NCBI GenBank assembly: GCA_019915135.1 | Contig: JAHLMK010000001.1 | Coordinates: forward strand, 6,262,001 to 6,326,000 | Direction: 5' to 3' | DNA: 64,000 bases | DNA from: Strobilurus pachycystidiatus | Lineage: Eukaryota > Basidiomycota > Agaricomycetes > Agaricales > Physalacriaceae | Shown: positions 25,910 to 45,727 of the stretch, one piece after another | Layout of the letters: the number at the start of each line of letters is the position of its first letter | Numbering within the stretch: position 1 is the stretch's first letter | Program-made: the position numbers and the translations under genes | The notes under the pieces: model-generated | The model's input: only the letters and a program-made list of their open reading frames with translations | Told to the model about the DNA's origin: nothing | Databases searched by the model: none

Positions 25910-27003
25910 CTAGCTTACTTCCTCCATATCGTCATCTTCCTCGTCATCATCATCTTCCTCCGCTTCATCATCAATCAACTCGCGACCTGCCTTCTTGTCG
26001 CCTTCCTCATCTTCCTCTTCCTCGTCGTCACTTCCATCCTCGTCATCATCTTCCTCGTCGTCATCTGTGGCCTCCATGCCTCCACCTTCCTTGTCCTCGT
26101 CAACCTCATACTCTGATGTATCCTGCTCGCCTTCACCTACTTGACCGCGTTCCAAATCGGCGCTCTGAAGTACAATTAGAAATAGTATCAAGTCTCAAAA
26201 AAGGAATACTCACAACTTCACGACTCAAAGTGCTCCGTTCAACGTTTGCAACCATCTGAAAGATATTAAGCATGTATATCAATGTTTAAAGCCAAAATGT
26301 ACTGTTTCCGATGAGGACTGACTCGCTTCAATACTTGGTACGGCGCGTGCCCTCTCCGTACGAACTCTTTCTGCAAAACTGTTAAAGTACGCCGTTGCGT
26401 CAGAGGGCAGGGCGGAGGTGCGTTGAAGTACAGCAACGTCAAGATGTTGTTCCGCCCACGCCAGGTCGTAGTTCATGACATCTGTATCCGGATTGCGTAA
26501 AAGTCCGCACCGCCGTGCAAAGGTCAGATAAATTGCCTGAGTACAATGTGTCAGATAGCGGAGCAGACGTTGACAACCAGCATGTACCTTTACCAACTGC
26601 GCACGAGCGCCAGTAATTTCCTCGGGCAAGACGTTGTTCGGAGGAATTTGCAGAGTTGGCGCATTAAGAAGACGGTCTATACCGCTGATGAAACCTGAGA
26701 ACTCGGTACGTTCCCTACGCTCTTCCCCTTGCTGACGAGCCTCGGCTTCGGTAATGGAGAGGAACTCGGCGGCCGGCTGGTACGTGAAGCCATCCCACGC
26801 CGCAGCATAGGTGGTATCGTACTCCGTCTCGTCAGGTGAGCACGCAAGGAGGATGCGCTGACAGAGCTCTGATATGAGCGGCTGAGTACGGACACGACGG
26901 AGGAATGGAAGCCAAGCCATAACGGAAAGGATCTCCTCGACACAAGTGTCCTCCTGGCGTGAGCGAGGTGTGGAAGAGTGGGATGCAAAGAGATACCACT
27001 GTG
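25910..27003 (-). pseudogene. Interrupted host gene, 3' segment (acidic C-terminus)
   Basis: C-terminal part of one large minus-strand gene cut by two transposon copies. It begins at the left target-site duplication of copy 1 (26996-27003) and reads YLFASHSSTPRSRQED.. directly in the frame left open at 35550. The main exon runs to about 26303. It includes MAWLPFLRRVRTQPLISELC and either contains or reads through a 51-bp intron near 26540-26590. A 14-codon exon (MVANVERSTLSREV) and a last exon with a long Asp/Glu tract follow, ending at the stop 25910-25912. Acidic tails of this kind occur in chromatin and histone-binding proteins, but no domain is recognised. Cut off from its promoter by 8.5 kb of transposon, it should not be expressed normally. 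Confidence 0.7.
26996..27003. repeat. Target site duplication of hAT copy 1, left
   Basis: CCACTGTG, repeated exactly at 35550-35557. Eight bases is the diagnostic TSD length for hAT elements. Confidence 0.95.
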
Positions 27004-27240
27004 TAGGGTTTCAAGGTTCAGTCTGGGTAGACCGGTAAAACCGGTGGACTGAACCGGACTGAACCGATCACATGACCAGTCTCATGTGGACCGGTCTGAC
27101 CGGTTCAACCGGTCCCGGTCCTAGGTCCCGGCCATTTCCAAAATTTGTAAGGACTGCCCGAGACCGGTCAGGACCGGTCAGGACCGAGCCGGTCTAAACC
27201 GGTTCTAGACCGGTTCGAACTGCCCTGGAAGTAGCTCAGA
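27004..27240 (+). repeat. Left terminal inverted repeat and ACCGGT subterminal cluster
   Basis: After the TAGGGTTTCAAG tip, about nine ACCGGT hexamers occur in both orientations (the motif is palindromic) within 240 bp, often extended as GACCGGTC or AACCGGTT. hAT transposases bind repeated subterminal motifs (AAACGG in maize Ac), so these are the likely binding sites. Every ACCGGT carries a CpG. The same block is at 37182-37418. Confidence 0.8.
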
Positions 27241-27246
27241 TAAAAT

Positions 27247-27327
27247 GACCCCCGAGGGAATTGATCCCGAGGGTCCTGACCGGCCTCATGTATCACAAGG
27301 CAGGCTTTTCCACTAGGCCAGACGGTC
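27247..27327 (-). other. tRNA-like sequence in left subterminal region
   Basis: On the minus strand, acceptor-like GACCGTC pairs with GGGGGTC. A box A-like TGGCCTAGTGG and a box B-like GGGATCAATTCCC are spaced as in a tRNA. The anticodon arm has a 9-nt or self-pairing loop (around TTGTGATACAT), so a functional tRNA is unlikely. It is repeated at 37425-37505. Confidence 0.45.
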
Positions 27328-27657
27328 TTGCAGACCACAGATTTTCAGGTGTCTTGAGGTTAGGCTTTGCGCAACGATGCAAGACATATCAACATTGTCA
27401 AATTTGGTAAGTTTACCATAATATTTACACAAAGTCTCAGACAAGGGTGTATTTAATTTTTTGAAGCTCATCACTTATTTCTATGTAGGCTATTCTGTAG
27501 CTATCTGTGGAGCTCATTCATTACTCGAGGACATAAATCAAGTTCAGGTTGGCAGAAGGGAATGGTAAACTTATCCATGCTCTAGCCAAACAAATTGGTC
27601 AGTACTCGTTTCAAAAGAGGGCAAAGTCGTCCCATCAACCCGACACTCACCTTCCTA
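27328..27657 (+). promoter_or_regulatory. Transposase upstream region with two recurrent 14-bp motifs
   Basis: AT-rich 330 bp before the transposase ATG. It contains GGTAAGTTTACCAT at 27406-27419 and the inverse ATGGTAAACTTATCC at 27562-27576. It probably holds the transposase promoter and leader, possibly with a leader intron. Confidence 0.45.
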
Positions 27658-30600
27658 ATGGCTCAATCCGTCGGCATTGCTGCAAAAGCATCAAAGACCT
27701 CTCAGAATAAAAGTTCCGGCAAAGGGAAAAAGCGGCAGCGCTCTCCTGTCCTGGAGTCTGACAGCAGTGGAGAAGGAGAATCCGACGAAGGGGAGTCCTC
27801 GGAGTCAGAATCCGAACCCGAACCCGCACCCGAACCCGAACCGCCAAAACGGAAAAGACGCAAGACACAGAAGGCGGCGCAGGCGGAGGCGACGGCGGCA
27901 TCAGCAAAAGGGAAGACTAAGGCAGTTAAACGGGCGACAAAAAAGAAGGCCACTGCCCCTTTGCAGGTATCGATCACAGCTGAAGGTGATGTGGTGAGTT
28001 GTAATACTCCATGGTAAACTTACCACTGACGGAGAGGCAGGATGTTGGCCATACGGCCGCCATTAGCAACATGGTGGTCGTCAAGGAGGTTGCTGATGAC
28101 CTTGACCTATTCTTTGGGCCCAAGGGATCACATGCATTTGGTGCAGGAGCTCCGGAACGCGGTCGATTTTGCCTGACCTGCCAGTAAGCGGAATAGTTGA
28201 ACCCCACAAGCCGCGTACTCACCAAGTCTAGTAATGACGCTGCCTATATAGCTCGCAATGGCGAGCGGAGTTGCTTTCACGTAGGGTCCAACACCTCGCT
28301 TCGCCACCACATGCGTCAACACTGGGACCACTACAAGAAAACGTGCGAGCAAAAGGGTGTGGTGCCACGGGATGCGGCCATGCCCACGAAGCTTTTGGCG
28401 GAGAAGACGGCCGCCGCCGCCGCCGTTGTAGCAGGAATTGATCCAAATGCGGGGAAGTTGACATCAATGGGCTTTGAACCTGCGGCTCATCCAAGAGAGT
28501 TTTCCGTCGAAGGAGCTCTTGAGCATATATCAAAGTATATTGTTTGCACTGATCAGGTATGTTCTGAGTTGAATGGTAGAGTGACGCACCTCACGCCCAA
28601 CCCAGTCTTTTGCAACGGCAGAAAACATCCACTTCCGCAACCAGTTCGTCATCTTCCGGCCCAAGACCCGCTTAAACGAGCTTCCCACCGCACACAAGAT
28701 CAAGAACTTTGTCCACAATTTCTATGTTGAGACCTTGGAGGAGCTGGTGGCGGAGTACGAGGTAAGTTTGCCATATTCACGCCGAACCACAAAATAAGGA
28801 CTCACCGATTGTCAGCGCGCCATTGGGTCGATCTCTACCGTTGGCGATGGATGGTCTGCGAAGCACAATAAACAGGGCTTCTTGGGAGTGAATGGATTTC
28901 ATGTGCGTGTCGTGAAGAAGAAAGGGAGGCCCGCCCGGTGGTCTCTTGAGCATGCCGTGATCGGGTTTCGTCGAATCCATGGGGCCCACGATGGCGAAAA
29001 TCTTGGGCGGCTTTTCATGAGTACAGTCATGCGATGCGGGATTGTCAACATTGACCGCAAGATTTCCAAGGTGAGGGGAGGAGGGTAACCTGTTGATGTT
29101 TGGCTTCGTTGACTAAATATGCCGTAGCTTGGTCCCATCACCATGGACAATGCTGCTCCCAACAACACGCTGTGCGAGACTATAGAGGAGCTGCATAACT
29201 TGCTGAATCTCAATAAGTGGGATGCCGCCGAAAATCAGTTAATGTATGTTGTTCAGGCTGGATGGTAAACTTACTTACATCTCTGATAGGTGCCTTGCAC
29301 ATGTTTTGAACCTCGCAGTGGGTGACTTTATGTCTGCCATCACCAAAACAGCGGCGATGGAAACGACCACCGCTATCTGGGAATATGATCCTGAGGATGC
29401 CAATAATCGTGTGCTTGGAGGATCTGTGGATGTCATTGCGGCCTTGCGCACGCTTGGAGTTAAGGTAAGTTTACCATTCCATCTTGTAGCCTGCCCATTA
29501 AAGGATTTCTAGATTCAGGCATCCGACCAGAGGATTCAGTACTTCCATTCACTGCAGCGAGAGATTGGCTTTGTCAAACCCCTTTCCATCATTCTCCACG
29601 GCAATACACGATGGGGAACAGCGCATGGGATGGCCAACCGTGGGCACCAGCTTCGCCAGCCTATCAACCGGTTTGTTGCCAGCGCCGACGAGCGGTTTGG
29701 TCCCATTACTGTCATTCGCGTCAACGGTAAGATCAGCAAGAAAATTCGATGGAGCGCCTTCCAACTGAATGAGGAGGAGTGGGCACGGGTCCTCGACTGC
29801 AAGACGATACTTGAGGACATCAAGAAGATACAACAGCTTTTTTCCTCGCAGAAGGAAGCAACGATGTACCACGTCATTCCTGCCATCGAGGAATTGCTCA
29901 CCCTCTGGGAGGCAAAGCTCGAGGATCCTGCCTTTGCCCTTTATCACGACGCCATTCGCGACGGCATTACCAAGCTCAGAAAATACTATGTCAAGTTTGA
30001 CAAGAAGCCTGCCTACATTGTTGGTCTCTGTAAGTGTTTCTTTGTACATGATTGAAGTAAGTTTACCATCTTTTTCAGTTATACATCCATACTTCAAGCT
30101 TGATTGGATTGAAGAGCACTGGGGTGGCGAGGAGGAGCAGCAGGAAGAGATTCGGAAGGGTAATCTTCGTGCCAAAAATTGGCTCAGAGAGGCAGAAAGA
30201 ATTGTTGAAACAGCGGTAAGTTTGCCATTTTGATATCATTTATGGGCAGCTGAAAGATTGTTACATAGATGGAGAAATATTGGGAGGATCGACTGGTCTT
30301 TCCTCCCTCTAAGCACCCCAAACCCGCCCCCGACGTGCATGACGACGATCTCGAGGATGATCGCCAGTACACTGTTCGGACCCTCCCTCCTTCGGTGGAT
30401 TCAACACGGTCAACACCAGCAGCGGATACCTCACCGGCAGACGGCACTACTCCAACAACCTCCAGCCTCCGCTCCGACTTCCAACGCAAACGTGAGGAGC
30501 GTCTTCGTGCACAGCAGGCTGCTCAGGCTGCAACAACCGGTCATAGTGGCTGGCGTGCGGAGCTAGGAGCTTACCGACAAACCGTGGAGAAGGATGTCAC

Positions 30601-30943
30601 CAATCATACCGACCTATGTGAGTGGTGGCAGGATAATGCCCATCTCTATCCAACGGTCGCGCGCATTGCCATCGACTATATCCCGGCCCAGGCTTCCTCC
30701 GTTTCCGCTGAGTTCCTCTTCTCGGGTAGTTCTCAGACAGCCGACGACCAGCGCGCCCGCCTCAGTGCCCAGATTTTTGAGGAGCTGCAGATTTCTAAGG
30801 ACCAGTGGAAGCGTGACGTTGTGGATTATGCAAAGCAGAATGAGAGCCAGGTCGAAGAGCATCCGGAGATGACTGCATTTCAGGATCTTGTAGCGGAGGA
30901 TGAGCGGGAGGCCGAATTAGACAAATGCCTTGGACTATTATAA
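27658..30943 (+). CDS. hAT-family transposase, copy 1 (10 exons)
   Basis: Catalyses cut-and-paste transposition in the nucleus. Ten exons (27658-27993, 28041-28183, 28232-28556, 28606-28761, 28816-29070, 29128-29243, 29290-29464, 29513-30029, 30079-30215, 30269-30943) give 944 aa in one consistent frame. A Lys/Glu-rich N-terminus is followed by a BED-type zinc finger (C156, C159, H185/H186, H190). The RNase H-like core has D331 in GDGWS, D412 in TMDNAAPNN and the insertion signature CLAH (C445, H448). The C-terminal hAT dimerisation region is at about 834-900 (LCEWWQDNAHLYPTVARIA ... SAEFLFSGSS). I chose the ATG at 27658 because the frame upstream opens only with non-ATG codons. Introns carry the element's GTAAGTTTACCAT motif in direct or inverse orientation. 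No disabling change is seen. Confidence 0.92.
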
Positions 30944-31623
30944 TTCTATAGTGTATATCTGCAATGATATACCCCTTATGCTCCCACTGGCCCGTTTGAA
31001 CCTGCAAAGAATTTTGGAAAGTTTACCATGTTTCTTCAGAGACAGAAGGAATCCCTTCTACAGCTATGTGAGACTCGAATGAGCCTTGGTCCCATGAATG
31101 ATGAGGATCTCAATGAGGTTCCTTGCATAAATACATCGGTAGAACGAGATGAAATCACCGTAAGTTCATGTGTCTGTATATGTGCATTGATCAATGTTCA
31201 TAAACCACTCCCAGTCTTTCACCTTCTTGATGCAGATAGGCATCCTCAATTTATGTGTCAATCAGGCAGTTACATTGCTCATTATGATTATACGCTATCC
31301 TCCGACAGCTAGACAAAATTGTGGTATAGATGGAAATAGACTGATTTAAGATGGCAAACTTACCAGACTGAACAAAATGATGCCTGTCTTTTGCTCCGAA
31401 TGGTTCGGTCATGCTGCCCCTGCTTGCTATCCCAGTAGTAGGCCTAATTGATCCCCTTCACACTCCAGCAAGTGCCCACCCTTTGACTCTTACGGATGTT
31501 GGAGTAGAAGGATGTTCGAACAACATGGTAAACTTACTCGGCTCGCGGACCGATCTTATGTAACGTTTGATGTAAGCAATTTATCCAGTCCATGCATGTT
31601 TCCTTTGCACTCTCACTGACACT
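30944..31623 (+). other. Spacer between transposase and RGG-protein genes
   Basis: No supported gene; a short frame at 31028-31312 is possible but has no features. It contains the recurrent motif three times: GGAAAGTTTACCAT (31016), ATGGCAAACTTACC (31351) and ATGGTAAACTTACT (31525). It likely holds the transposase 3' end and the promoter of the next gene. Confidence 0.45.
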
Positions 31624-32990
31624 ATGAGCTTGCACTGCCGCGGATTCATACCCCCCGCCCCGCCTCCACGCGCCCGTCGCGGTACATTGCCTGCCCGCGC
31701 AACCGACGTGCCGCCGGAGACTCATTCATCCCCTGCCGCCCCGGAACTCAGGCGTTCACCGGAACACATTCACGCGCACGCGCCCGCCGCATCGGCGTTA
31801 CCTGCATCGACGCCCTCGCCGTCTACGTCGTGCCCGCGTCTTCCATCCATGGCGCCGCCTTCTCCACGCCCTGCCGCACGTCAACCATTTGACGACCTTC
31901 CACCCCATCTGCAATTCTCCCCACCGCCTGCGCCCGGGTTGCGTAGCTACCGCTCTTCGTCCTCGCTGTCCGACATGTCGCTATCCCCGGAGCCAGAACC
32001 TGCCCCCTGCGCCCCGGAACCCACGCGCAAAAGACCGCGACCCGTCTCTGAATCGCCCTTTCCATCACCATACCGCCCCACTCGTCCCGTTATGGTCGAT
32101 TCGCCATCGTCGCCCAGTCACAACAGTCCTTCTCCTGCGCAATCCCTCCCGGCCGGTCCACCCCCACCTTTGGCACGCGCGCCGTCTCCTCATATCCCTG
32201 CTCGTGGGCGGCCCACTGTTCGTGCACGCGCTATTGTTCGCGGACGCGGACGTGGATTACCGGGGCGCGCATCCCAGGCTAGGGCACGGTCGCCATCTCC
32301 TCCGCCGCCACCTCCTGTTACACGTGGGCGTGGAGGCGGAGGACGCAGTCGTGGACGTGGGCACGCGCAGGGCAGGAGCAGTGGTCCAGGAGGTAGGCGT
32401 GGTCGGTTGTCCACACCGGCACTACCCCGCGCTTGGTCTTCCCGCCGCATGGTGGAGGAGTCCGCTGAAGAAGAAGAATCCGCGGAGTCCTCTGATGGCG
32501 AGGATGAATTGGAGGAGTCGTCCGATGCCGCTGATGATGAGGAGGGGGTCCGCATCGAAGCACCGCTCCCTAGTCTTGACGAGTTGCTGGCCAAGACTGT
32601 GCCCTCCACCACAGCGTCCGGTCGCCCTCTTACCGCCAAGGAAACTCGCCTGTGGACGCGATCACATCTGCAGGAGATCCGGGCAGCAAAGGCGGAATTT
32701 GTGAAGCGGACGGGAAAGCGGGAGAAAGCGCGTGAGGCGGAGAAAAGATATGCGGGAAGTCACCATGACGAGCGCAACGCAAAGCAGCGGGAGTACGCTA
32801 CCAGGTAAGTTTTACTTTTCTCACCCTCTAGATGCTAATTGTTTCCAGACGACGTGCCGCAATAAAATCATTACCTGCAGCACAACAAGCGGCCATTCGT
32901 GCTTCCAACTCTGCGGCCGTTCAACGTTCCAAGGCGCGCAAGAAAGCCAAGGGGCGGGGCGAGAATCTGGATGATGAGGAGAGTTCTTAA
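31624..32990 (+). CDS. Cargo protein: proline-rich, RGG-box and acidic, copy 1
   Basis: A 440-aa protein of unknown function from two exons (31624-32804, 32849-32990) joined by a 44-bp intron. The first 200 residues are Pro/Ser/Arg-rich and presumably disordered. Residues about 200-270 are an Arg/Gly repeat region (RGRGRG, GRGGGGRSRGRG), as in RNA- or G-quadruplex-binding RGG boxes. An acidic tract follows (EESAEEEESAESSDGEDELEESSDAADDEEG region). The C-terminal 100 residues are a strongly basic, helix-prone stretch (LTAKETRLWTRSHLQEIRAAKAEF; later KARKKAKGRG) that could bind DNA or RNA. I know no family for it. Its presence between transposase and dioxygenase in both copies marks it as a regular part of the element. 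Confidence 0.75.
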
Positions 32991-33558
32991 TTTACTTTCC
33001 TTTGATGATTGTGATATCTTGCTATGTTTTTGGGTGCTTTGTACACACTTACATTTATCTTTCTCTCTGGGTGCTTTGTAGTTTCTTCGTGTAATCTTGA
33101 ACATGGCAAATTTATTAGCATGCATGGCTATGATGGCAAACTTACCGCACGTGAGGCGTCCAAATATTTGGACATAGTTGGTTGACCGTTGAAGGCATAA
33201 ATTGCTTTGTCCCATTTTGACACCAACCCTCATCACCTGGCTCTCCATCCGACAACAGTTGGAGCCACTCTCGCCTCCAAGTAAGCCCTCATCTTTTTAT
33301 TTGCTACTCTTGTTTGTCTTTCTTCTTCCCGGCTATCACTCTCCTGTGTGCAAGCACGACGACTCGGCACTTGGGACGCGACTGCTTAGTGCACGGGAGA
33401 GTCAGGCCGTTTCTTTTTTTCTTCTCATTTCATTGCGTGGTTGGCACGTAGAGGCCCGCCGACCCGGCTTTGGGACGCGACCGCCTCCCCTCTGCCGGCT
33501 ATGATTATTTTTGGCCATTCTCTTGCCGGTAAGCTCATGCTAACTTTTGCTGCTAGAG
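32991..33558 (+). promoter_or_regulatory. Spacer and probable leader of the dioxygenase gene
   Basis: Two weaker copies of the 14-bp motif lie at 33103 and 33133. A TTGGGACGCGAC sequence occurs at 33368 and 33471. A likely leader intron runs from about 33530 (CCG|GTAAGC) to TGCTAG at 33556, just before the ATG. Confidence 0.4.
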
Positions 33559-35125
33559 ATGGCCCGCACGACACGCTCCGGCCGCGTCTACACGCCCTTT
33601 GAACTTGGGGAGCCCGTTGTTATCGACGTTGATGTGTCGGAGCTCCTCAAGCTTCGTTTTGCGGAGTTGGACGCGACGGGCGCCGATGGAAGTGACGAAG
33701 AGGATGAATTGGAGTGCCCCAATGGTGAGGGTGTCGCGGACGACGCGTTGTCGCACGTAGTGCGTGTCCAATTCTTCTCCACCCTGGTAAACTTACCTAG
33801 TACAGGTTCCCCCGCTTCATCACTCCGCCCTCCAACCCATGTGCGCCCCACCATCCCCCGCCGTGCACCCTTCCTCCTCAGAACCTTCTTCCTCCCGCCC
33901 CATCCCTCCCGCCGTCGTCAACCATTCACGCCGCAGTTCCAAGAAACGTCGTGCTGCCTCCCGCTTAGCCCGTCAAGATGCCACCGGCGACTACGCCAAG
34001 GGTATCTCACGCAAGCATCGCCGGCTGGCTGCGGACAATGCTGTTGAGCTTGACTTTGACGCCGCTGATTTGCCGGTCAACTCTTCGGGCTTTGGGGGCT
34101 GTCGCCGTCAACCTCATTTCGCCAATGCCGATCCCGAAATTCTTCAGCGGGAGCATGGGTTCCGTTATCTTGCTCATTCGGGGAAGTACAGTGTACCCGT
34201 TGTGGATCGTCACCGCCGGATGATGATTTTGGTGGGCACCAAGCCCGCTAATGGCCAGGAATGGGAGGAAGTAGTCGAAGCTGAGATTGTGGAGGCCATT
34301 GAAGAGGGTGCGTCGCAAGTTTGCTTCTCCGCCAAGGAGACCATCCATAAGCGCGGGCCTTTTGGAGCCTTGGCTATTGGAGTCTCTTATGGGGGAGGAG
34401 AAATGGTAAGTTTACCATTCTAATGCGTGGATCATCCTGATATGATTCAACAGCGGCCGGGAAATCGCAGGCTCTCTCCTTCGGGACGCCAATTCATGGA
34501 GCACCTCATTCAGACGCGTGCAATGCGGCGCCTATCGGGCTATATGAACTGTAAGTTTACCATTTCATTGTAGTTTCATTCTCTTATATTCTGTTCATGC
34601 TCAGCCCTCTTTGCCACCCACAATCCGATCATGTATGAAGAGTATAAGGAGCATCAGGTTACACTCCATGCCTCCGATGCACGCCTTCGCCGAAACTTTG
34701 ACAATAGTGTATTTTCTTGCACTACGGTCAATACCGGCCCTCAGACCGTCTCTCTTCCCCATGCCGATAGTGCCAATAAGCCCGATGGCTGGTGTGGGAT
34801 TGTCTGCTTTGGGCCTTTTGACCATCGACGCGGCGGCCAACTCATCTGTTGGGATCTTAAACTCATCATTGAGTTTCCTCCCGGCTGCCCCGTATACATC
34901 CCTTCGGCGCTCGTCGTGCATTCTAATTGCCCCATCCAGCCGGGAGAGAAGCGTTACTCAATCACCCAGTACACAGCGGGCGGGCTTTTTCGGTGGGTGG
35001 CCAACAAGTTCAAGACGGAAGAGCACTTCCTGAGGAACGCGAGTGAGGAGGAATTGGAGCAGTGGTGGAAGGATCGGGAAACGCGTTGGCAGCGGGGCCT
35101 CCGCCTTTTTCCTTTGGTACCATAA
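33559..35125 (+). CDS. TET/JBP-type 2OG-Fe(II) dioxygenase, copy 1
   Basis: Predicted nuclear dioxygenase oxidising methylated bases in DNA (5-methylcytosine to 5-hydroxymethylcytosine is the family reaction; not proven here). Four exons (33559-33759, 33806-34405, 34454-34550, 34605-35125) give 472 aa. The N-terminus has TRSGRVY, an acidic linker and a Ser/Pro/Arg-rich segment. The double-stranded beta-helix core occupies about residues 300-440. The iron ligands H352 and D354 (PHAD) and H405 (VVHSN) are present, and R416 (KRYSITQY) is placed to bind 2-oxoglutarate. The surrounding pattern (GGQLICWDLKLIIEFPPG ... YTAGGLFRWV) is that of the fungal TET/JBP branch. In Agaricomycetes such genes are known to travel with KDZ transposases; here the carrier is hAT. 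Introns 2 and 3 start with GTAAGTTTACCAT, and intron 1 contains the inverse motif. Confidence 0.85.
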
Positions 35126-35239
35126 TCTTATGTATTTTTTCAATCAATGGTAAACTTACCTTATCTACGATGTTTTTTTTTGTTGTGTTGGTGGTCTGTA
35201 TGTACCCCATGTCGAGTCCCACAACAACATTTCAGAAAT

Positions 35240-35311
35240 GCTCAATGACGCAGTGGGTAAGTGTCCACTTGAGTAGTCTTGCAGGCTGAGTTCAAGTCCT
35301 GCTACTGGCAC
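35240..35311 (+). other. tRNA-like sequence in right subterminal region
   Basis: Box A-like TGACGCAGTGGG, box B-like GAGTTCAAGTCC and a GCAGG/CCTGC stem occur in tRNA order and spacing. Acceptor pairing is poor, so this is a tRNA relic or a Pol III promoter rather than a working tRNA. It is repeated at 45418-45489. Confidence 0.4.
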
Positions 35312-35325
35312 TAATTTTACTGGCT

Positions 35326-35549
35326 GATACCGGTCCTAACCGGTCTCGAGACCGGTTCAAACCGGTTTTGACGGGACCGGTCCTAACCGGTCTCGAGACT
35401 GGTTCAAAGACCGTACCCTGCACGGTTCACAATCAGGACCGGTCCAGGTCCTCAGTTCCGCCAAATGTGGGATTTTGGCAGACCGGTCCAGTTCCAGTTC
35501 AGGACTCCGAGGGGTCAAAAACCGGACTGGACCGGACTTTCAAACCCTA
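35326..35549 (-). repeat. Right terminal inverted repeat and ACCGGT subterminal cluster
   Basis: About eight ACCGGT hexamers, including an internal tandem duplication (ACCGGTCCTAACCGGTCTCGAGA.. twice near 35331 and 35378). The block ends in CTTTCAAACCCTA. The same block is at 45504-45727. Confidence 0.8.
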
Positions 35550-35557
35550 CCACTGTG
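35550..35557. repeat. Target site duplication of hAT copy 1, right
   Basis: CCACTGTG, identical to 26996-27003. Confidence 0.95.
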
Positions 35558-37173
35558 AGCCAGAAGACTCCAGCATGGCGCGGATGTCGATGTAAAGGTC
35601 ATAGGCAGCCTCGCAGTCCAGAGTCCGGCGGATAGCGTCAAAGTCATCCACAAGGAGTTCAAAGTCGTGAGTGGCGTTATAATGCGCCTCAACGAACGGC
35701 ACCATGTGCAAGTGCACGAGTCTTTTGACGGCGTCCAGAAGTTTCTGAAAGACGTCATGGGAAAAGTTGTAGAGCGCAGGAATGTGCTGAGGCATAGGAT
35801 AGTCGGTATCCTTGGCCAATAGTTCGGTCAACTCGGCCCATCCGCGCTGCTGGGACTCAATATAGATTGTGGCCAACTGGGCGCGCAGCTGCGCCCTATT
35901 GGTACCAGGATTTTGCAGACACACAGTATTCATGGCGAGCGTCCATTCTGGTCCTGAACGTTTCGTCAGGGCCTTGAACTCAACCAGACTCGGAAGCTGA
36001 ACAAATAAGTAAGACGGTGAAGTTGACAAGAAAATAAGAGAAAACTTACAATCTTATTGGCCAGTCTCCAGACGGCAGCACCCTTCTTACAACCTGCCGG
36101 CCCAAACAGACCAACGAGCGTTCCCATGAAACCCTCTGTCATAGGAAAAACGGGTGTCCCAAGTTGGAGAATGTTGGAAGTCTTGGAACGAGTGACGAGG
36201 GGAGTTTTGTAGGCATAGAATATCGTCTTGGGAAGGTCGGCAATGAATGATGAGATGGGGACAACGTCAGGCTTCTTCTTCTGTAGTTGGGTCTCCAACG
36301 CCTGCATCATATCATCAAACGCAGTGATGAGGCGGGCTGACCAATCGGCTGCCGTGGACGAGCCATGCTTGGCGCCAAACTCCAGGGAGAAGTGGGGCAG
36401 GAGGTTCGTGGTGAAGACTTTATCAAGCGCAGCAAGAACGGGAGTGGGAGGAATGGGACTCGATGATTGGAACAAGAATTCAGACCAAAGGTCGTCAACA
36501 AGATGGTGGCGCTCCTGATTTGTCATAGCGTGATAGTCCTTGATGGATGGTGCGCCTCGCAGAACCTCAGAGGCTAGAAGCTGCGCATAGGTCAATGATG
36601 TGATGATGACCGGCGCCAACAGCTATAAAAAAGTGTATGAGTCTCGACGTATGTGATGAAGAGGAAGACCATCCATACCTCGCCCGTATGGAGTGCCGTT
36701 TGTTCCATTGCCTTCTCCGCAGACCATTTGGATCGGCCTTGTTTCCCACTGAAGAGGGGATAGCGCGCCAAGGGAGCGAGTGCGTAGATTAGGGGAGGAT
36801 TGTTGTAGATATTGCGAGCCATAGATCCCGCTGTATTGCCAATCATTTGGGAGAACGCAACATTGAGCTGACTGCACAAGGCGGGGGTGGGGCCATCACC
36901 AATCGCAACGGCCTGTACGGCGGAAAGAACGTGGCGCATTTTATCGCTATGGGTCTCGTTGATGGTGAGCAAACGACGGTTTGAGGCGGCAGTGGCAAAA
37001 ATCTCGGGTCCCATCCCAGAGGCTCGTACAGCGCCTAAGGCCAACAAGTGATTAGGGGGGGAATAATTCACAAGTGGGTTTACAACGCACCATAGTCAAT
37101 AAATCGGACCACCCAAGTCGACTTGTCATCCAACTCCTGCCGATAGAAATCGCGCTGCTCTATGAGCTTCGTA

Positions 37174-37181: not shown

Positions 37182-37418
37182 TAGGGTTTCAAGGTTCAGT
37201 CTGGGTAGACCGGTAAAACCGGTGGACTGAACCGGACTGAACCGATCACATGACCAGTCTCATGTGGACCGGTCTGACCGGTTCAACCGGTCCCGGTCCT
37301 AGGTCCCGGCCATTTCCAAAATTTGTAAGGACTGCCCGAGACCGGTCAGGACCGGTCAGGACCGAGCCGGTCTAAACCGGTTCTAGACCGGTTCGAACTG
37401 CCCTGGAAGTAGCTCAGA
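37182..37418 (+). repeat. Left TIR and ACCGGT cluster, copy 2
   Basis: Identical by eye to 27004-27240. The tRNA-like sequence follows at 37425-37505 on the minus strand. Confidence 0.8.
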
Positions 37419-37835
37419 TAAAATGACCCCCGAGGGAATTGATCCCGAGGGTCCTGACCGGCCTCATGTATCACAAGGCAGGCTTTTCCACTAGGCCAGA
37501 CGGTCTTGCAGACCACAGATTTTCAGGTGTCTTGAGGTTAGGCTTTGCGCAACGATGCAAGACATATCAACATTGTCAAATTTGGTAAGTTTACCATAAT
37601 ATTTACACAAAGTCTCAGACAAGGGTGTATTTAATTTTTTGAAGCTCATCACTTATTTCTATGTAGGCTATTCTGTAGCTATCTGTGGAGCTCATTCATT
37701 ACTCGAGGACATAAATCAAGTTCAGGTTGGCAGAAGGGAATGGTAAACTTATCCATGCTCTAGCCAAACAAATTGGTCAGTACTCGTTTCAAAAGAGGGC
37801 AAAGTCGTCCCATCAACCCGACACTCACCTTCCTA

Positions 37836-40800
37836 ATGGCTCAATCCGTCGGCATTGCTGCAAAAGCATCAAAGACCTCTCAGAATAAAAGTTCCGGCAA
37901 AGGGAAAAAGCGGCAGCGCTCTCCTGTCCTGGAGTCTGACAGCAGTGGAGAAGGAGAATCCGACGAAGGGGAGTCCTCGGAGTCAGAATCCGAACCCGAA
38001 CCCGCACCCGAACCCGAACCGCCAAAACGGAAAAGACGCAAGACACAGAAGGCGGCGCAGGCGGAGGCGACGGCGGCATCAGCAAAAGGGAAGACTAAGG
38101 CAGTTAAACGGGCGACAAAAAAGAAGGCCACTGCCCCTTTGCAGGTATCGATCACAGCTGAAGGTGATGTGGTGAGTTGTAATACTCCATGGTAAACTTA
38201 CCACTGACGGAGAGGCAGGATGTTGGCCATACGGCCGCCATTAGCAACATGGTGGTCGTCAAGGAGGTTGCTGATGACCTTGACCTATTCTTTGGGCCCA
38301 AGGGATCACATGCATTTGGTGCAGGAGCTCCGGAACGCGGTCGATTTTGCCTGACCTGCCAGTAAGCGGAATAGTTGAACCCCACAAGCCGCGTACTCAC
38401 CAAGTCTAGTAATGACGCTGCCTATATAGCTCGCAATGGCGAGCGGAGTTGCTTTCACGTAGGGTCCAACACCTCGCTTCGCCACCACATGCGTCAACAC
38501 TGGGACCACTACAAGAAAACGTGCGAGCAAAAGGGTGTGGTGCCACGGGATGCGGCCATGCCCACGAAGCTTTTGGCGGAGAAGACGGCCGCCGCCGCCG
38601 CCGTTGTAGCAGGAATTGATCCAAATGCGGGGAAGTTGACATCAATGGGCTTTGAACCTGCGGCTCATCCAAGAGAGTTTTCCGTCGAAGGAGCTCTTGA
38701 GCATATATCAAAGTATATTGTTTGCACTGATCAGGTATGTTCTGAGTTGAATGGTAGAGTGACGCACCTCACGCCCAACCCAGTCTTTTGCAACGGCAGA
38801 AAACATCCACTTCCGCAACCAGTTCGTCATCTTCCGGCCCAAGACCCGCTTAAACGAGCTTCCCACCGCACACAAGATCAAGAACTTTGTCCACAATTTC
38901 TATGTTGAGACCTTGGAGGAGCTGGTGGCGGAGTACGAGGTAAGTTTGCCATATTCACGCCGAACCACAAAATAAGGACTCACCGATTGTCAGCGCGCCA
39001 TTGGGTCGATCTCTACCGTTGGCGATGGATGGTCTGCGAAGCACAATAAACAGGGCTTCTTGGGAGTGAATGGATTTCATGTGCGTGTCGTGAAGAAGAA
39101 AGGGAGGCCCGCCCGGTGGTCTCTTGAGCATGCCGTGATCGGGTTTCGTCGAATCCATGGGGCCCACGATGGCGAAAATCTTGGGCGGCTTTTCATGAGT
39201 ACAGTCATGCGATGCGGGATTGTCAACATTGACCGCAAGATTTCCAAGGTGAGGGGAGGAGGGTAACCTGTTGATGTTTGGCTTCGTTGACTAAATATGC
39301 CGTAGCTTGGTCCCATCACCATGGACAATGCTGCTCCCAACAACACGCTGTGCGAGACTATAGAGGAGCTGCATAACTTGCTGAATCTCAATAAGTGGGA
39401 TGCCGCCGAAAATCAGTTAATGTATGTTGTTCAGGCTGGATGGTAAACTTACTTACATCTCTGATAGGTGCCTTGCACATGTTTTGAACCTCGCAGTGGG
39501 TGACTTTATGTCTGCCATCACCAAAACAGCGGCGATGGAAACGACCACCGCTATCTGGGAATATGATCCTGAGGATGCCAATAATCGTGTGCTTGGAGGA
39601 TCTGTGGATGTCATTGCGGCCTTGCGCACGCTTGGAGTTAAGGTAAGTTTACCATTCCATCTTGTAGCCTGCCCATTAAAGGATTTCTAGATTCAGGCAT
39701 CCGACCAGAGGATTCAGTACTTCCATTCACTGCAGCGAGAGATTGGCTTTGTCAAACCCCTTTCCATCATTCTCCACGGCAATACACGATGGGGAACAGC
39801 GCATGGGATGGCCAACCGTGGGCACCAGCTTCGCCAGCCTATCAACCGGTTTGTTGCCAGCGCCGACGAGCGGTTTGGTCCCATTACTGTCATTCGCGTC
39901 AACGGTAAGATCAGCAAGAAAATTCGATGGAGCGCCTTCCAACTGAATGAGGAGGAGTGGGCACGGGTCCTCGACTGCAAGACGATACTTGAGGACATCA
40001 AGAAGATACAACAGCTTTTTTCCTCGCAGAAGGAAGCAACGATGTACCACGTCATTCCTGCCATCGAGGAATTGCTCACCCTCTGGGAGGCAAAGCTCGA
40101 GGATCCTGCCTTTGCCCTTTATCACGACGCCATTCGCGACGGCATTACCAAGCTCAGAAAATACTATGTCAAGTTTGACAAGAAGCCTGCCTACATTGTT
40201 GGTCTCTGTAAGTGTTTCTTTGTACATGATTGAAGTAAGTTTACCATCTTTTTCAGTTATACATCCATACTTCAAGCTTGATTGGATTGAAGAGCACTGG
40301 GGTGGCGAGGAGGAGCAGCAGGAAGAGATTCGGAAGGGTAATCTTCGTGCCAAAAATTGGCTCAGAGAGGCAGAAAGAATTGTTGAAACAGCGGTAAGTT
40401 TGCCATTTTGATATCATTTATGGGCAGCTGAAAGATTGTTACATAGATGGAGAAATATTGGGAGGATCGACTGGTCTTTCCTCCCTCTAAGCACCCCAAA
40501 CCCGCCCCCGACGTGCATGACGACGATCTCGAGGATGATCGCCAGTACACTGTTCGGACCCTCCCTCCTTCGGTGGATTCAACACGGTCAACACCAGCAG
40601 CGGATACCTCACCGGCAGACGGCACTACTCCAACAACCTCCAGCCTCCGCTCCGACTTCCAACGCAAACGTGAGGAGCGTCTTCGTGCACAGCAGGCTGC
40701 TCAGGCTGCAACAACCGGTCATAGTGGCTGGCGTGCGGAGCTAGGAGCTTACCGACAAACCGTGGAGAAGGATGTCACCAATCATACCGACCTATGTGAG

Positions 40801-41121
40801 TGGTGGCAGGATAATGCCCATCTCTATCCAACGGTCGCGCGCATTGCCATCGACTATATCCCGGCCCAGGCTTCCTCCGTTTCCGCTGAGTTCCTCTTCT
40901 CGGGTAGTTCTCAGACAGCCGACGACCAGCGCGCCCGCCTCAGTGCCCAGATTTTTGAGGAGCTGCAGATTTCTAAGGACCAGTGGAAGCGTGACGTTGT
41001 GGATTATGCAAAGCAGAATGAGAGCCAGGTCGAAGAGCATCCGGAGATGACTGCATTTCAGGATCTTGTAGCGGAGGATGAGCGGGAGGCCGAATTAGAC
41101 AAATGCCTTGGACTATTATAA
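37836..41121 (+). CDS. hAT-family transposase, copy 2 (10 exons)
   Basis: Same 944-aa product and exon plan as copy 1, shifted by 10,178 bp (first exon 37836-38171, last exon 40447-41121). The BED finger, the catalytic Asp residues (D331, D412), CLAH and the dimerisation region are all unchanged. With two intact source genes in the window, either copy could mobilise both. Confidence 0.92.
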
Positions 41122-41801
41122 TTCTATAGTGTATATCTGCAATGATATACCCCTTATGCTCCCACTGGCCCGTTTGAACCTGCAAAGAATTTTGGAAAGT
41201 TTACCATGTTTCTTCAGAGACAGAAGGAATCCCTTCTACAGCTATGTGAGACTCGAATGAGCCTTGGTCCCATGAATGATGAGGATCTCAATGAGGTTCC
41301 TTGCATAAATACATCGGTAGAACGAGATGAAATCACCGTAAGTTCATGTGTCTGTATATGTGCATTGATCAATGTTCATAAACCACTCCCAGTCTTTCAC
41401 CTTCTTGATGCAGATAGGCATCCTCAATTTATGTGTCAATCAGGCAGTTACATTGCTCATTATGATTATACGCTATCCTCCGACAGCTAGACAAAGTTGT
41501 GGTATAGATGGAAATAGACTGATTTAAGATGGCAAACTTACCAGACTGAACAAAATGATGCCTGTCTTTTGCTCCGAATGGTTCGGTCATGCTGCCCCTG
41601 CTTGCTATCCCAGTAGTAGGCCTAATTGATCCCCTTCACACTCCAGCAAGTGCCCACCCTTTGACTCTTACGGATGTTGGAGTAGAAGGATGTTCGAACA
41701 ACATGGTAAACTTACTCGGCTCGCGGACCGATCTTATGTAACGTTTGATGTAAGCAATTTATCCAGTCCATGCATGTTTCCTTTGCACTCTCACTGACAC
41801 T

Positions 41802-43168
41802 ATGAGCTTGCACTGCCGCGGATTCATACCCCCCGCCCCGCCTCCACGCGCCCGTCGCGGTACATTGCCTGCCCGCGCAACCGACGTGCCGCCGGAGACT
41901 CATTCATCCCCTGCCGCCCCGGAACTCAGGCGTTCACCGGAACACATTCACGCGCACGCGCCCGCCGCATCGGCGTTACCTGCATCGACGCCCTCGCCGT
42001 CTACGTCGTGCCCGCGTCTTCCATCCATGGCGCCGCCTTCTCCACGCCCTGCCGCACGTCAACCATTTGACGACCTTCCACCCCATCTGCAATTCTCCCC
42101 ACCGCCTGCGCCCGGGTTGCGTAGCTACCGCTCTTCGTCCTCGCTGTCCGACATGTCGCTATCCCCGGAGCCAGAACCTGCCCCCTGCGCCCCGGAACCC
42201 ACGCGCAAAAGACCGCGACCCGTCTCTGAATCGCCCTTTCCATCACCATACCGCCCCACTCGTCCCGTTATGGTCGATTCGCCATCGTCGCCCAGTCACA
42301 ACAGTCCTTCTCCTGCGCAATCCCTCCCGGCCGGTCCACCCCCACCTTTGGCACGCGCGCCGTCTCCTCATATCCCTGCTCGTGGGCGGCCCACTGTTCG
42401 TGCACGCGCTATTGTTCGCGGACGCGGACGTGGATTACCGGGGCGCGCATCCCAGGCTAGGGCACGGTCGCCATCTCCTCCGCCGCCACCTCCTGTTACA
42501 CGTGGGCGTGGAGGCGGAGGACGCAGTCGTGGACGTGGGCACGCGCAGGGCAGGAGCAGTGGTCCAGGAGGTAGGCGTGGTCGGTTGTCCACACCGGCAC
42601 TACCCCGCGCTTGGTCTTCCCGCCGCATGGTGGAGGAGTCCGCTGAAGAAGAAGAATCCGCGGAGTCCTCTGATGGCGAGGATGAATTGGAGGAGTCGTC
42701 CGATGCCGCTGATGATGAGGAGGGGGTCCGCATCGAAGCACCGCTCCCTAGTCTTGACGAGTTGCTGGCCAAGACTGTGCCCTCCACCACAGCGTCCGGT
42801 CGCCCTCTTACCGCCAAGGAAACTCGCCTGTGGACGCGATCACATCTGCAGGAGATCCGGGCAGCAAAGGCGGAATTTGTGAAGCGGACGGGAAAGCGGG
42901 AGAAAGCGCGTGAGGCGGAGAAAAGATATGCGGGAAGTCACCATGACGAGCGCAACGCAAAGCAGCGGGAGTACGCTACCAGGTAAGTTTTACTTTTCTC
43001 ACCCTCTAGATGCTAATTGTTTCCAGACGACGTGCCGCAATAAAATCATTACCTGCAGCACAACAAGCGGCCATTCGTGCTTCCAACTCTGCGGCCGTTC
43101 AACGTTCCAAGGCGCGCAAGAAAGCCAAGGGGCGGGGCGAGAATCTGGATGATGAGGAGAGTTCTTAA
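41802..43168 (+). CDS. Cargo protein: proline-rich, RGG-box and acidic, copy 2
   Basis: Same 440-aa product as copy 1 (exons 41802-42982 and 43027-43168). No difference was noticed. No function is known. Confidence 0.75.
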
Positions 43169-43736
43169 TTTACTTTCCTTTGATGATTGTGATATCTTGC
43201 TATGTTTTTGGGTGCTTTGTACACACTTACATTTATCTTTCTCTCTGGGTGCTTTGTAGTTTCTTCGTGTAATCTTGAACATGGCAAATTTATTAGCATG
43301 CATGGCTATGATGGCAAACTTACCGCACGTGAGGCGTCCAAATATTTGGACATAGTTGGTTGACCGTTGAAGGCATAAATTGCTTTGTCCCATTTTGACA
43401 CCAACCCTCATCACCTGGCTCTCCATCCGACAACAGTTGGAGCCACTCTCGCCTCCAAGTAAGCCCTCATCTTTTTATTTGCTACTCTTGTTTGTCTTTC
43501 TTCTTCCCGGCTATCACTCTCCTGTGTGCAAGCACGACGACTCGGCACTTGGGACGCGACTGCTTAGTGCACGGGAGAGTCAGGCCGTTTCTTTTTTTCT
43601 TCTCATTTCATTGCGTGGTTGGCACGTAGAGGCCCGCCGACCCGGCTTTGGGACGCGACCGCCTCCCCTCTGCCGGCTATGATTATTTTTGGCCATTCTC
43701 TTGCCGGTAAGCTCATGCTAACTTTTGCTGCTAGAG

Positions 43737-45303
43737 ATGGCCCGCACGACACGCTCCGGCCGCGTCTACACGCCCTTTGAACTTGGGGAGCCCGTTGTTA
43801 TCGACGTTGATGTGTCGGAGCTCCTCAAGCTTCGTTTTGCGGAGTTGGACGCGACGGGCGCCGATGGAAGTGACGAAGAGGATGAATTGGAGTGCCCCAA
43901 TGGTGAGGGTGTCGCGGACGACGCGTTGTCGCACGTAGTGCGTGTCCAATTCTTCTCCACCCTGGTAAACTTACCTAGTACAGGTTCCCCCGCTTCATCA
44001 CTCCGCCCTCCAACCCATGTGCGCCCCACCATCCCCCGCCGTGCACCCTTCCTCCTCAGAACCTTCTTCCTCCCGCCCCATCCCTCCCGCCGTCGTCAAC
44101 CATTCACGCCGCAGTTCCAAGAAACGTCGTGCTGCCTCCCGCTTAGCCCGTCAAGATGCCACCGGCGACTACGCCAAGGGTATCTCACGCAAGCATCGCC
44201 GGCTGGCTGCGGACAATGCTGTTGAGCTTGACTTTGACGCCGCTGATTTGCCGGTCAACTCTTCGGGCTTTGGGGGCTGTCGCCGTCAACCTCATTTCGC
44301 CAATGCCGATCCCGAAATTCTTCAGCGGGAGCATGGGTTCCGTTATCTTGCTCATTCGGGGAAGTACAGTGTACCCGTTGTGGATCGTCACCGCCGGATG
44401 ATGATTTTGGTGGGCACCAAGCCCGCTAATGGCCAGGAATGGGAGGAAGTAGTCGAAGCTGAGATTGTGGAGGCCATTGAAGAGGGTGCGTCGCAAGTTT
44501 GCTTCTCCGCCAAGGAGACCATCCATAAGCGCGGGCCTTTTGGAGCCTTGGCTATTGGAGTCTCTTATGGGGGAGGAGAAATGGTAAGTTTACCATTCTA
44601 ATGCGTGGATCATCCTGATATGATTCAACAGCGGCCGGGAAATCGCAGGCTCTCTCCTTCGGGACGCCAATTCATGGAGCACCTCATTCAGACGCGTGCA
44701 ATGCGGCGCCTATCGGGCTATATGAACTGTAAGTTTACCATTTCATTGTAGTTTCATTCTCTTATATTCTGTTCATGCTCAGCCCTCTTTGCCACCCACA
44801 ATCCGATCATGTATGAAGAGTATAAGGAGCATCAGGTTACACTCCATGCCTCCGATGCACGCCTTCGCCGAAACTTTGACAATAGTGTATTTTCTTGCAC
44901 TACGGTCAATACCGGCCCTCAGACCGTCTCTCTTCCCCATGCCGATAGTGCCAATAAGCCCGATGGCTGGTGTGGGATTGTCTGCTTTGGGCCTTTTGAC
45001 CATCGACGCGGCGGCCAACTCATCTGTTGGGATCTTAAACTCATCATTGAGTTTCCTCCCGGCTGCCCCGTATACATCCCTTCGGCGCTCGTCGTGCATT
45101 CTAATTGCCCCATCCAGCCGGGAGAGAAGCGTTACTCAATCACCCAGTACACAGCGGGCGGGCTTTTTCGGTGGGTGGCCAACAAGTTCAAGACGGAAGA
45201 GCACTTCCTGAGGAACGCGAGTGAGGAGGAATTGGAGCAGTGGTGGAAGGATCGGGAAACGCGTTGGCAGCGGGGCCTCCGCCTTTTTCCTTTGGTACCA
45301 TAA
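43737..45303 (+). CDS. TET/JBP-type 2OG-Fe(II) dioxygenase, copy 2
   Basis: Same 472-aa product as copy 1 (exons 43737-43937, 43984-44583, 44632-44728, 44783-45303). The ligands H352, D354, H405 and R416 are conserved. Confidence 0.85.
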
Positions 45304-45503
45304 TCTTATGTATTTTTTCAATCAATGGTAAACTTACCTTATCTACGATGTTTTTTTTTGTTGTGTTGGTGGTCTGTATGTACCCCATGTCGAGTCCCAC
45401 AACAACATTTCAGAAATGCTCAATGACGCAGTGGGTAAGTGTCCACTTGAGTAGTCTTGCAGGCTGAGTTCAAGTCCTGCTACTGGCACTAATTTTACTG
45501 GCT

Positions 45504-45727
45504 GATACCGGTCCTAACCGGTCTCGAGACCGGTTCAAACCGGTTTTGACGGGACCGGTCCTAACCGGTCTCGAGACTGGTTCAAAGACCGTACCCTGCA
45601 CGGTTCACAATCAGGACCGGTCCAGGTCCTCAGTTCCGCCAAATGTGGGATTTTGGCAGACCGGTCCAGTTCCAGTTCAGGACTCCGAGGGGTCAAAAAC
45701 CGGACTGGACCGGACTTTCAAACCCTA
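45504..45727 (-). repeat. Right TIR and ACCGGT cluster, copy 2
   Basis: Identical by eye to 35326-35549. The tRNA-like sequence precedes it at 45418-45489. Confidence 0.8.

Follow-up and report, generated by a model that had tools for sequence, protein, structure and literature searches.

Fungal transposons that carry a gene of the TET/JBP dioxygenase type are known, but it is not known whether such an enzyme acts on its own element or everywhere in the genome, and this is the question raised by a hAT element of Strobilurus pachycystidiatus. The element (copy 1) covers 27004..35549 on the plus strand, 8546 bp, of the window, by which we mean the whole 64,000 nucleotides analysed (contig JAHLMK010000001.1, positions 6,262,001 to 6,326,000), and coordinates given without a locus name refer to it. 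It is apparently an autonomous hAT transposon with predicted genes for a transposase, an RGG/acidic protein and a TET/JBP-type dioxygenase, and a second copy is present in the same window. A short motif, dispersed through its non-coding parts, was missed in the preliminary description of this DNA, which had proposed that the element escapes methylation-based silencing, and the motif gives that idea a specific mechanism. Our reading, to which we assign a probability of about 0.5, is that the resident dioxygenase acts against silencing by oxidizing methylated cytosine on the element, and that docking on the motif brings the enzyme to the copies of the family.

Copy 1 contains 16 sites differing by at most one base from GGTAAGTTTACC, and 17 if two mismatches are allowed. 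All are located in introns, untranslated regions or spacers, with the exception that five of them extend by a single base into coding sequence at splice donors. The 5' leader has two sites (27406..27417, plus strand, and 27564..27575, minus strand), and the transposase gene has sites in intron 1 (28013..28024, minus), intron 6 (29264..29275, minus) and within intron 8 (30056..30067, plus), as well as three overlapping the splice donors of introns 4 (28761..28772), 7 (29464..29475) and 9 (30215..30226), all plus. Downstream of the transposase there is one site in the 3' spacer (31016..31027, plus), one further along the spacer (31353..31364, minus), one upstream of the RGG gene (31527..31538, minus) and one between the RGG and TET genes (33135..33146, minus). 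The remaining four are found in TET intron 1 (33786..33797, minus), over the donors of TET introns 2 (34405..34416, plus) and 3 (34550..34561, plus), and 3' of TET (35149..35160, minus). Extended to TGGTAA-GT-TTACCA, the motif forms an inverted repeat, and it contains no CpG. The sites might be transcriptional or splicing elements of the transposon genes, that is a promoter or enhancer, or favoured 5' splice sites of the form GTAAGT, and the five donor sites, the GTAAGT core present in nearly all of the 16, and the occurrence of sites upstream of each gene agree with this. Half of the sites (8 of 16) are however oriented opposite to the genes, and this explanation, against which two further observations given below also speak, appears quite unlikely.

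A search of the window with the motif gave 47 match rows, where shuffled sequences would lead one to expect 2.5, and only one match, at two mismatches, falls outside the two copies. Genome-wide the exact word GGTAAGTTTACCAT was found 117 times and its reversed control not at all. Among the 100 matches listed, 51 are positioned within 700 bp of a 5' end of the family, a further 25 are no more than 6 kb from a family protein match, and the other 24 were divided by eye into 10 at family loci that had been fetched, 13 with a spacing like that of the miniature inverted-repeat transposable elements (MITEs) of the family, and one (C9:1222483) that could be assigned to neither. An exact motif is found no farther than 700 bp from at least 34 of the 40 family 5' ends; four of the other six lie outside the matches listed. 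The motif is almost private to the window family and its MITEs. The latter, about 600–710 bp long, are represented by L033–L038 and by further places in the genome, with a mutual identity of 74–94%, and in five of these six three motif copies are spaced about 30 bp apart. No protein match was found in the six MITE-sized loci, and each holds 3–4 motif copies without any gene, which argues against a role confined to the splicing or transcription of the transposon genes.

In an automatic MAFFT alignment with three diverged relatives that are not fully independent of one another (L019, L020 and L021, in this order below), the motif columns are 88, 91 and 80% identical, compared with 54, 53 and 47% for other non-coding columns and 69, 71 and 65% for coding columns. 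The 11 sites outside splice donors are 88, 89 and 75% identical and their 14-base flanks 55, 52 and 43%, a difference that again speaks against splicing, and in each relative the value observed for these 11 sites was higher than in any of 2000 random non-coding placements. Several sites are lost or cannot be aligned in the relatives, most of them in L021. Since synonymous sites are near saturation, this degree of conservation is, on the alignment, hard to reconcile with neutral leftovers.

Related hAT lineages of the same genome were examined for their own versions of the motif, and are here called A (the window family), B (L040), C (L039), D (L041) and E (L042). The A motif is absent from L040, where GTGAGTTAGCA occurs instead, with eight exact copies distributed over both orientations; as judged from protein matches and not from a full gene model, these sites are intronic or flanking. 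The word GTGAGTTAACA is present in L042 with three exact copies and six within one mismatch, and in L041 with two exact copies and four within one mismatch, and it stands out in E at a length of 12 bases with one mismatch. The A, B and E/D words are absent, even at one mismatch, from the 46.9 kb of window background, and they are also absent from both copies examined of a TET-less hAT family (L046 and L047). Genome-wide, the exact B word shows a mild enrichment (40 occurrences, compared with 26 of the reversed control). Copies of B on C10 and C5 keep the word at matching places, and therefore do not constitute independent evidence. The top words of L046 and L047 are acidic-codon repeats with log10 P of -11.9 and -18.8, against -11.8 for motif B; because such repeats score as high, word enrichment alone cannot separate motifs from coding repeats, but motif B also rests on its eight exact copies and their places. 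The second lineage-B element, at C5:568004-593269, is seemingly split by at least one insertion adding about 17 kb, with B motifs and transposase at 568–571 kb and TET at 592–593 kb. L046 and L047 are hAT-like with weak transposase matches (28.6%), and lie in opposite orientation to each other, with 99.9% identity across 5477 bases.

Short family-specific non-coding motifs that differ between related families, together with an element-encoded accessory gene proposed to act on the copies of its family, are likewise found in the VANDAL elements of Arabidopsis with their VANC proteins (PMC5735166, PMC10398659). VANC21 binds YAGTATTAY and occupies introns, intergenic stretches and the non-coding termini (PMC5735166; PMC10398659), VANC6 prefers motifs other than those of VANC21, and each of the two binds within the non-coding sequence of its own VANDALs (PMC5735166). 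VANDALs are MuDR elements (PMC12730594), so that the window element, having a hAT transposase, is not one of them, and VANC targets often form tandem repeats (PMC5735166, PMC10398659) whereas the full-length window element has mostly single, spread sites. A family-specific non-coding motif that differs between relatives was found in A and B, in weaker form in E, and was not seen in C. The window element moreover encodes a TET enzyme, unlike the VANDAL/VANC system; VANC is not known to be a dioxygenase.

Because the motif pattern resembles that of VANDAL/VANC and the element encodes a TET enzyme, we propose that TET is targeted by docking on the motif. An element-encoded DNA-binding protein, for which the RGG/acidic protein, the N-terminal part of TET and the BED finger of the transposase are candidates, would dock on TGGTAAGTTTACCA and recruit TET to members of the family, its MITEs among them, and hardly anywhere else in the genome. 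As the motifs contain no CpG, docking itself should not be blocked by CpG methylation. The enzyme would then oxidize methylated cytosine on the element, which would counter methylation-based silencing and might lead to a gain in expression or mobility, and each sister family with a diverged motif would rely on a protein set of its own for clearing. By analogy to VANDAL/VANC the motif may thus restrict the removal of silencing marks to the element's own copies. Both binding and oxidation are steps that we infer; anti-silencing has been published as an interpretation of other fungal transposons with TET (PMC12730594).

The dioxygenase gene is predicted at 33559..35125 on the plus strand and encodes 462 amino acids in four exons. 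The preliminary description had recognized the TET/JBP-type gene but gave it 472 residues, its first intron being modelled differently here, and the catalytic residues named there as H352, D354, H405 and R416 correspond to H342, D344, H395 and R406 of our model. The presumptive iron triad HxD...H (H342, D344, H395) is invariant in all 28 aligned sequences and the presumptive 2-oxoglutarate arginine, R406, is conserved in at least 90%, their roles being assigned by analogy. A profile search, which the preliminary description had named as a criterion for the predicted fold, had a mixed outcome: the full window protein had no Pfam match even at E<=1, while the Tet_JBP profile matched 11 of 45 homologues at E<=0.01; applied to the genome the same profile gave 13 matches, none above its cut-off. 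A profile built from the homologues found no TET among the sequences of the Protein Data Bank at E<=1, and its one match there was a TATA-binding protein (E=0.03) within a Gln/basic stretch. As the direct profile searches failed, the identity was settled by a fold search with the AlphaFold2 model of homologue P0004, which is 53% identical to the window dioxygenase across 60% of the query. The best solved matches are NgTET1, CcTet and TET2, so that the window gene is assigned the TET/JBP fold by way of this model, and its product looks like a DNA-methyl-oxidizing enzyme. CcTET of Coprinopsis cinerea has 12–16% identity to the P0004 model and is a relative of TETs borne by Kyakuja, not by hAT elements (PMC12730594).

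The window sequence reads HAD, with the D invariant in 28 of 28 sequences, in place of the HxE of Kojima's PE type, and by this motif the enzyme is not of PE type. The position of CcTET D337 reads Cys353 by an ungapped count from H342, this cysteine being invariant in the alignment, and the enzyme is by sequence probably not of AG type either. The TET might be kept for another base modification, such as oxidized 6mA or hypermodified cytosine, serving to mark or protect the element instead of demethylating it, for CcTET oxidizes 6mA too and CMD1 makes glyceryl-5mC (PMC12730594), the window TET has none of the discussed CcTET residues by the ungapped count, and the P0004 model also matches CMD1. 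The best structural matches, NgTET1 and CcTet, are however 5mC oxidases, and we consider this alternative unlikely. The exons of TET and transposase are under purifying selection, with dN/dS of 0.03–0.09 in nine of 20 comparisons, the other 11 being saturated at synonymous sites, and TET exon 4 has pN of 0.06–0.21 and pS of 0.57–0.89 against eight relatives. The host genome has seven cytosine-methyltransferase matches, all above the Pfam cut-off. At least 106 exon-level matches to the TET protein are spread over many contigs of this genome (G000), most of them below 50% identity.

Several observations weigh against motif-guided oxidation as we read it. L039 (lineage C) has both transposase and TET, but no dispersed motif was found in it at word lengths of 8, 10 and 12, only the subterminal CAACCGGTTG; L042 and L041 contain one exact B-type word each; and at two mismatches the E word has a log10 P of -6.2 and is not above the window background (-6.7). 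The positions G331 and D337 of CcTET, which are discussed in PMC12730594, read N and C in the window protein (ungapped count with H342 as origin), and Kojima has speculated that the AG-type TETs of Agaricomycotina lack target specificity (PMC12730594). In addition, the BED fingers of the Hermes hAT transposase bind short subterminal repeats, palindromic pairs included (PMC10368747), and this leads to the main rival explanation, namely that the dispersed motifs are sites for the BED finger of the transposase, serving as extra recognition or enhancer sequences in transposition, with TET as an untargeted passenger that oxidizes methylated DNA generally. The motif being an inverted repeat, and its retention in MITEs, which need transposase sites only, are consistent with such a role. 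The Hermes repeats, some of them palindromic, are concentrated towards the tips (PMC10368747). Here the motif runs through introns and spacers over most of the 8.5 kb, separate subterminal repeats exist both in the window element (ACCGGT type) and in lineage C, and the one TET-less hAT family examined (L046, L047) gave only acidic-codon repeats as top words, and we therefore regard transposase binding as possible but doubtful. For the window family the motif argues for targeted action of TET.

That the TET/JBP gene is a resident cargo of the hAT element itself, as first proposed, is supported by sequence comparison with other loci of the genome. The first 14 non-MITE loci fetched (L019–L032) include many that are partial or have stops. 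A transposase was matched in seven (L019, L020, L021, L028, L030, L031, L032), accompanied by TET in five of these (L019, L020, L021, L030, L032), and segments of the RGG protein are present in L019, L020, L021 (27 amino acids only) and L030, so that these four diverged relatives have transposase, RGG and TET together. A single chance capture was rejected because diverged relatives retain the cargo, which answers a question left by the preliminary description as to other copies of the family. The order transposase then TET recurs in the more distant lineages C, B and E (L039, L040, L042), where the matched segments are 31–65% (transposase) and 38–76% (TET) identical to those of the window element; the fetched stretch of L041 (D) matches the transposase only. 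L042 and L040 are 66–78% identical at the DNA level in the main matched blocks. L039 and L040 have no match to the family-A RGG protein at E<=0.01, but a short basic open reading frame (ORF), different in B and C, is seen between transposase and TET (L040:3541-4677 and L039:4020-4418, both minus strand), and that of L040 includes a stretch KRRPGRP which we take to resemble an AT-hook.

TET without a transposase inside the fetched stretch was found in L022–L026, of which L022 has four A-type sites at up to one mismatch, L023 two, L025 one, and L024 and L026 none, and the fetched stretches of L027 and L029 matched neither transposase nor TET. In three further TET loci (L043–L045) the 9.9 kb retrieved contained neither a transposase match at E<=1 nor a clear motif; these TET genes may be held by other carriers or be host genes. 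An ORF resembling reverse transcriptase, perhaps of a LINE-type element as judged by eye, adjoins the TET gene at L043:9184-9768.

The borders of the element had been placed exactly in the preliminary description, as regards both the coordinates with their terminal inverted repeats (TIRs) and the 8-bp target-site duplication (TSD). The TSD CCACTGTG is located at 26996-27003 and again at 35550-35557, the TIRs read TAGGGTTTC...CAAACCCTA, and the inverted repeat 27003-27023/35530-35550 has a complementarity of 81%. Subterminal ACCGGT-type repeats, of the GAGACCGGTC and AGACCGGTCC families, follow the TIR in the 5' terminal region (27004..27220) and precede it in the 3' terminal region (35326..35549), the inner limits being approximate. 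Copy 2, at 37182..45727 on the plus strand with the TSD TGCGACGG, is a young second copy that differs from copy 1 by a single base in 8546, an A or a G at 31318, and thus both cargo genes are present in both copies, as had been stated. It is located 1632 bases beyond copy 1 in the same orientation. A tandem-duplicate artefact of the assembly was thought unlikely because the TSDs of the two copies differ and their flanks are unrelated. TSDs of 8 bp were found in both window copies and in all three MITEs inspected (L033, L036, L037). When each copy was removed with one TSD, two minus-strand ORFs fused at insertion 1, and the reading frame broken by copy 1 (26279-27010 and 35547-36053, minus strand) is open over 406 amino acids once rejoined. 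A near-identical third 5' end (C12, L027) was rejected as a full copy, as no match to transposase, RGG or TET was found in 9.9 kb.

Gene models were predicted by hand from reading frames and splice-site patterns. The transposase (27658..30943, plus strand) has 942 amino acids in 10 exons, and the earlier view that it is intact agrees with this open model and with a Dimer_Tnp_hAT domain (PF05699) at residues 827–896 (E=2.4e-11, 43.7 bits against a Pfam cut-off of 21.4). As candidates for the catalytic acidic residues and the RW motif of hAT transposases, D331, W333 and W534 are invariant in 13 of 13 sequences and R533 is conserved in at least 90%, while the second D and the E were not picked out among the listed conserved columns. 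A putative N-terminal BED-like finger is made up of C156, C159 and H186, each conserved in at least 90%, and the invariant H190; Pfam zf-BED gave no match at E<=1. The RGG/acidic protein (31624..32991, plus strand, two exons) has 440 amino acids, the same length as previously given, and for residues 300–440 no homologues beyond this genome were found at E<=0.001.

Families of hAT with TET, named hAT7, have been described in Puccinia (Kojima 2025, PMC12730594), and the novelty that had been attached to the hAT carrier is therefore reduced. Like the window element, hAT7 combines a hAT transposase and a TET/JBP gene in one DNA transposon, and anti-silencing has been proposed for it, but it has 7-bp TSDs, a PU-type TET and rust hosts, and in three named families TET is located upstream of the transposase (PMC12730594). 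The window element has 8-bp TSDs, TET downstream, the RGG protein in between, and named homologues from Agaricomycetes. The available part of that paper reports no dispersed motif in hAT7. TET/JBP cargo is also found in the Kyakuja, Zisupton, Plavaka, EnSpm and Helitron2 elements of Agaricomycotina, which belong to other transposase superfamilies and have TETs of AG type or PE type (HxE) (PMC12730594), in contrast to the window element with its hAT transposase, its HxD and, by ungapped count, no equivalent of the AG-type D337. In the open-licence literature beyond PMC12730594 we found no paper on a TET-carrying hAT and nothing on such motifs in fungi, which does not establish their absence from print. 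New here are the 8-bp TSD, an HxD TET without the CcTET D337 equivalent (ungapped), the RGG partner, the motif system and the agaricomycete-like host.

A family-private, conserved docking motif makes it directly testable whether a TET enzyme acts on its own element or everywhere. Tentatively, and with somewhat less confidence than in the mechanism for the window family, we suggest that fungal hATs have, independently of plant VANDALs, evolved a self-restricted anti-silencing system in which a DNA-methyl oxidase is combined with a docking motif that is private to the family and free of CpG, with motif and reader co-diverging between sister families. If this is true, plants and fungi would have converged on selective anti-silencing, and the element would offer a small, naturally occurring module for directing DNA demethylation by means of a motif.

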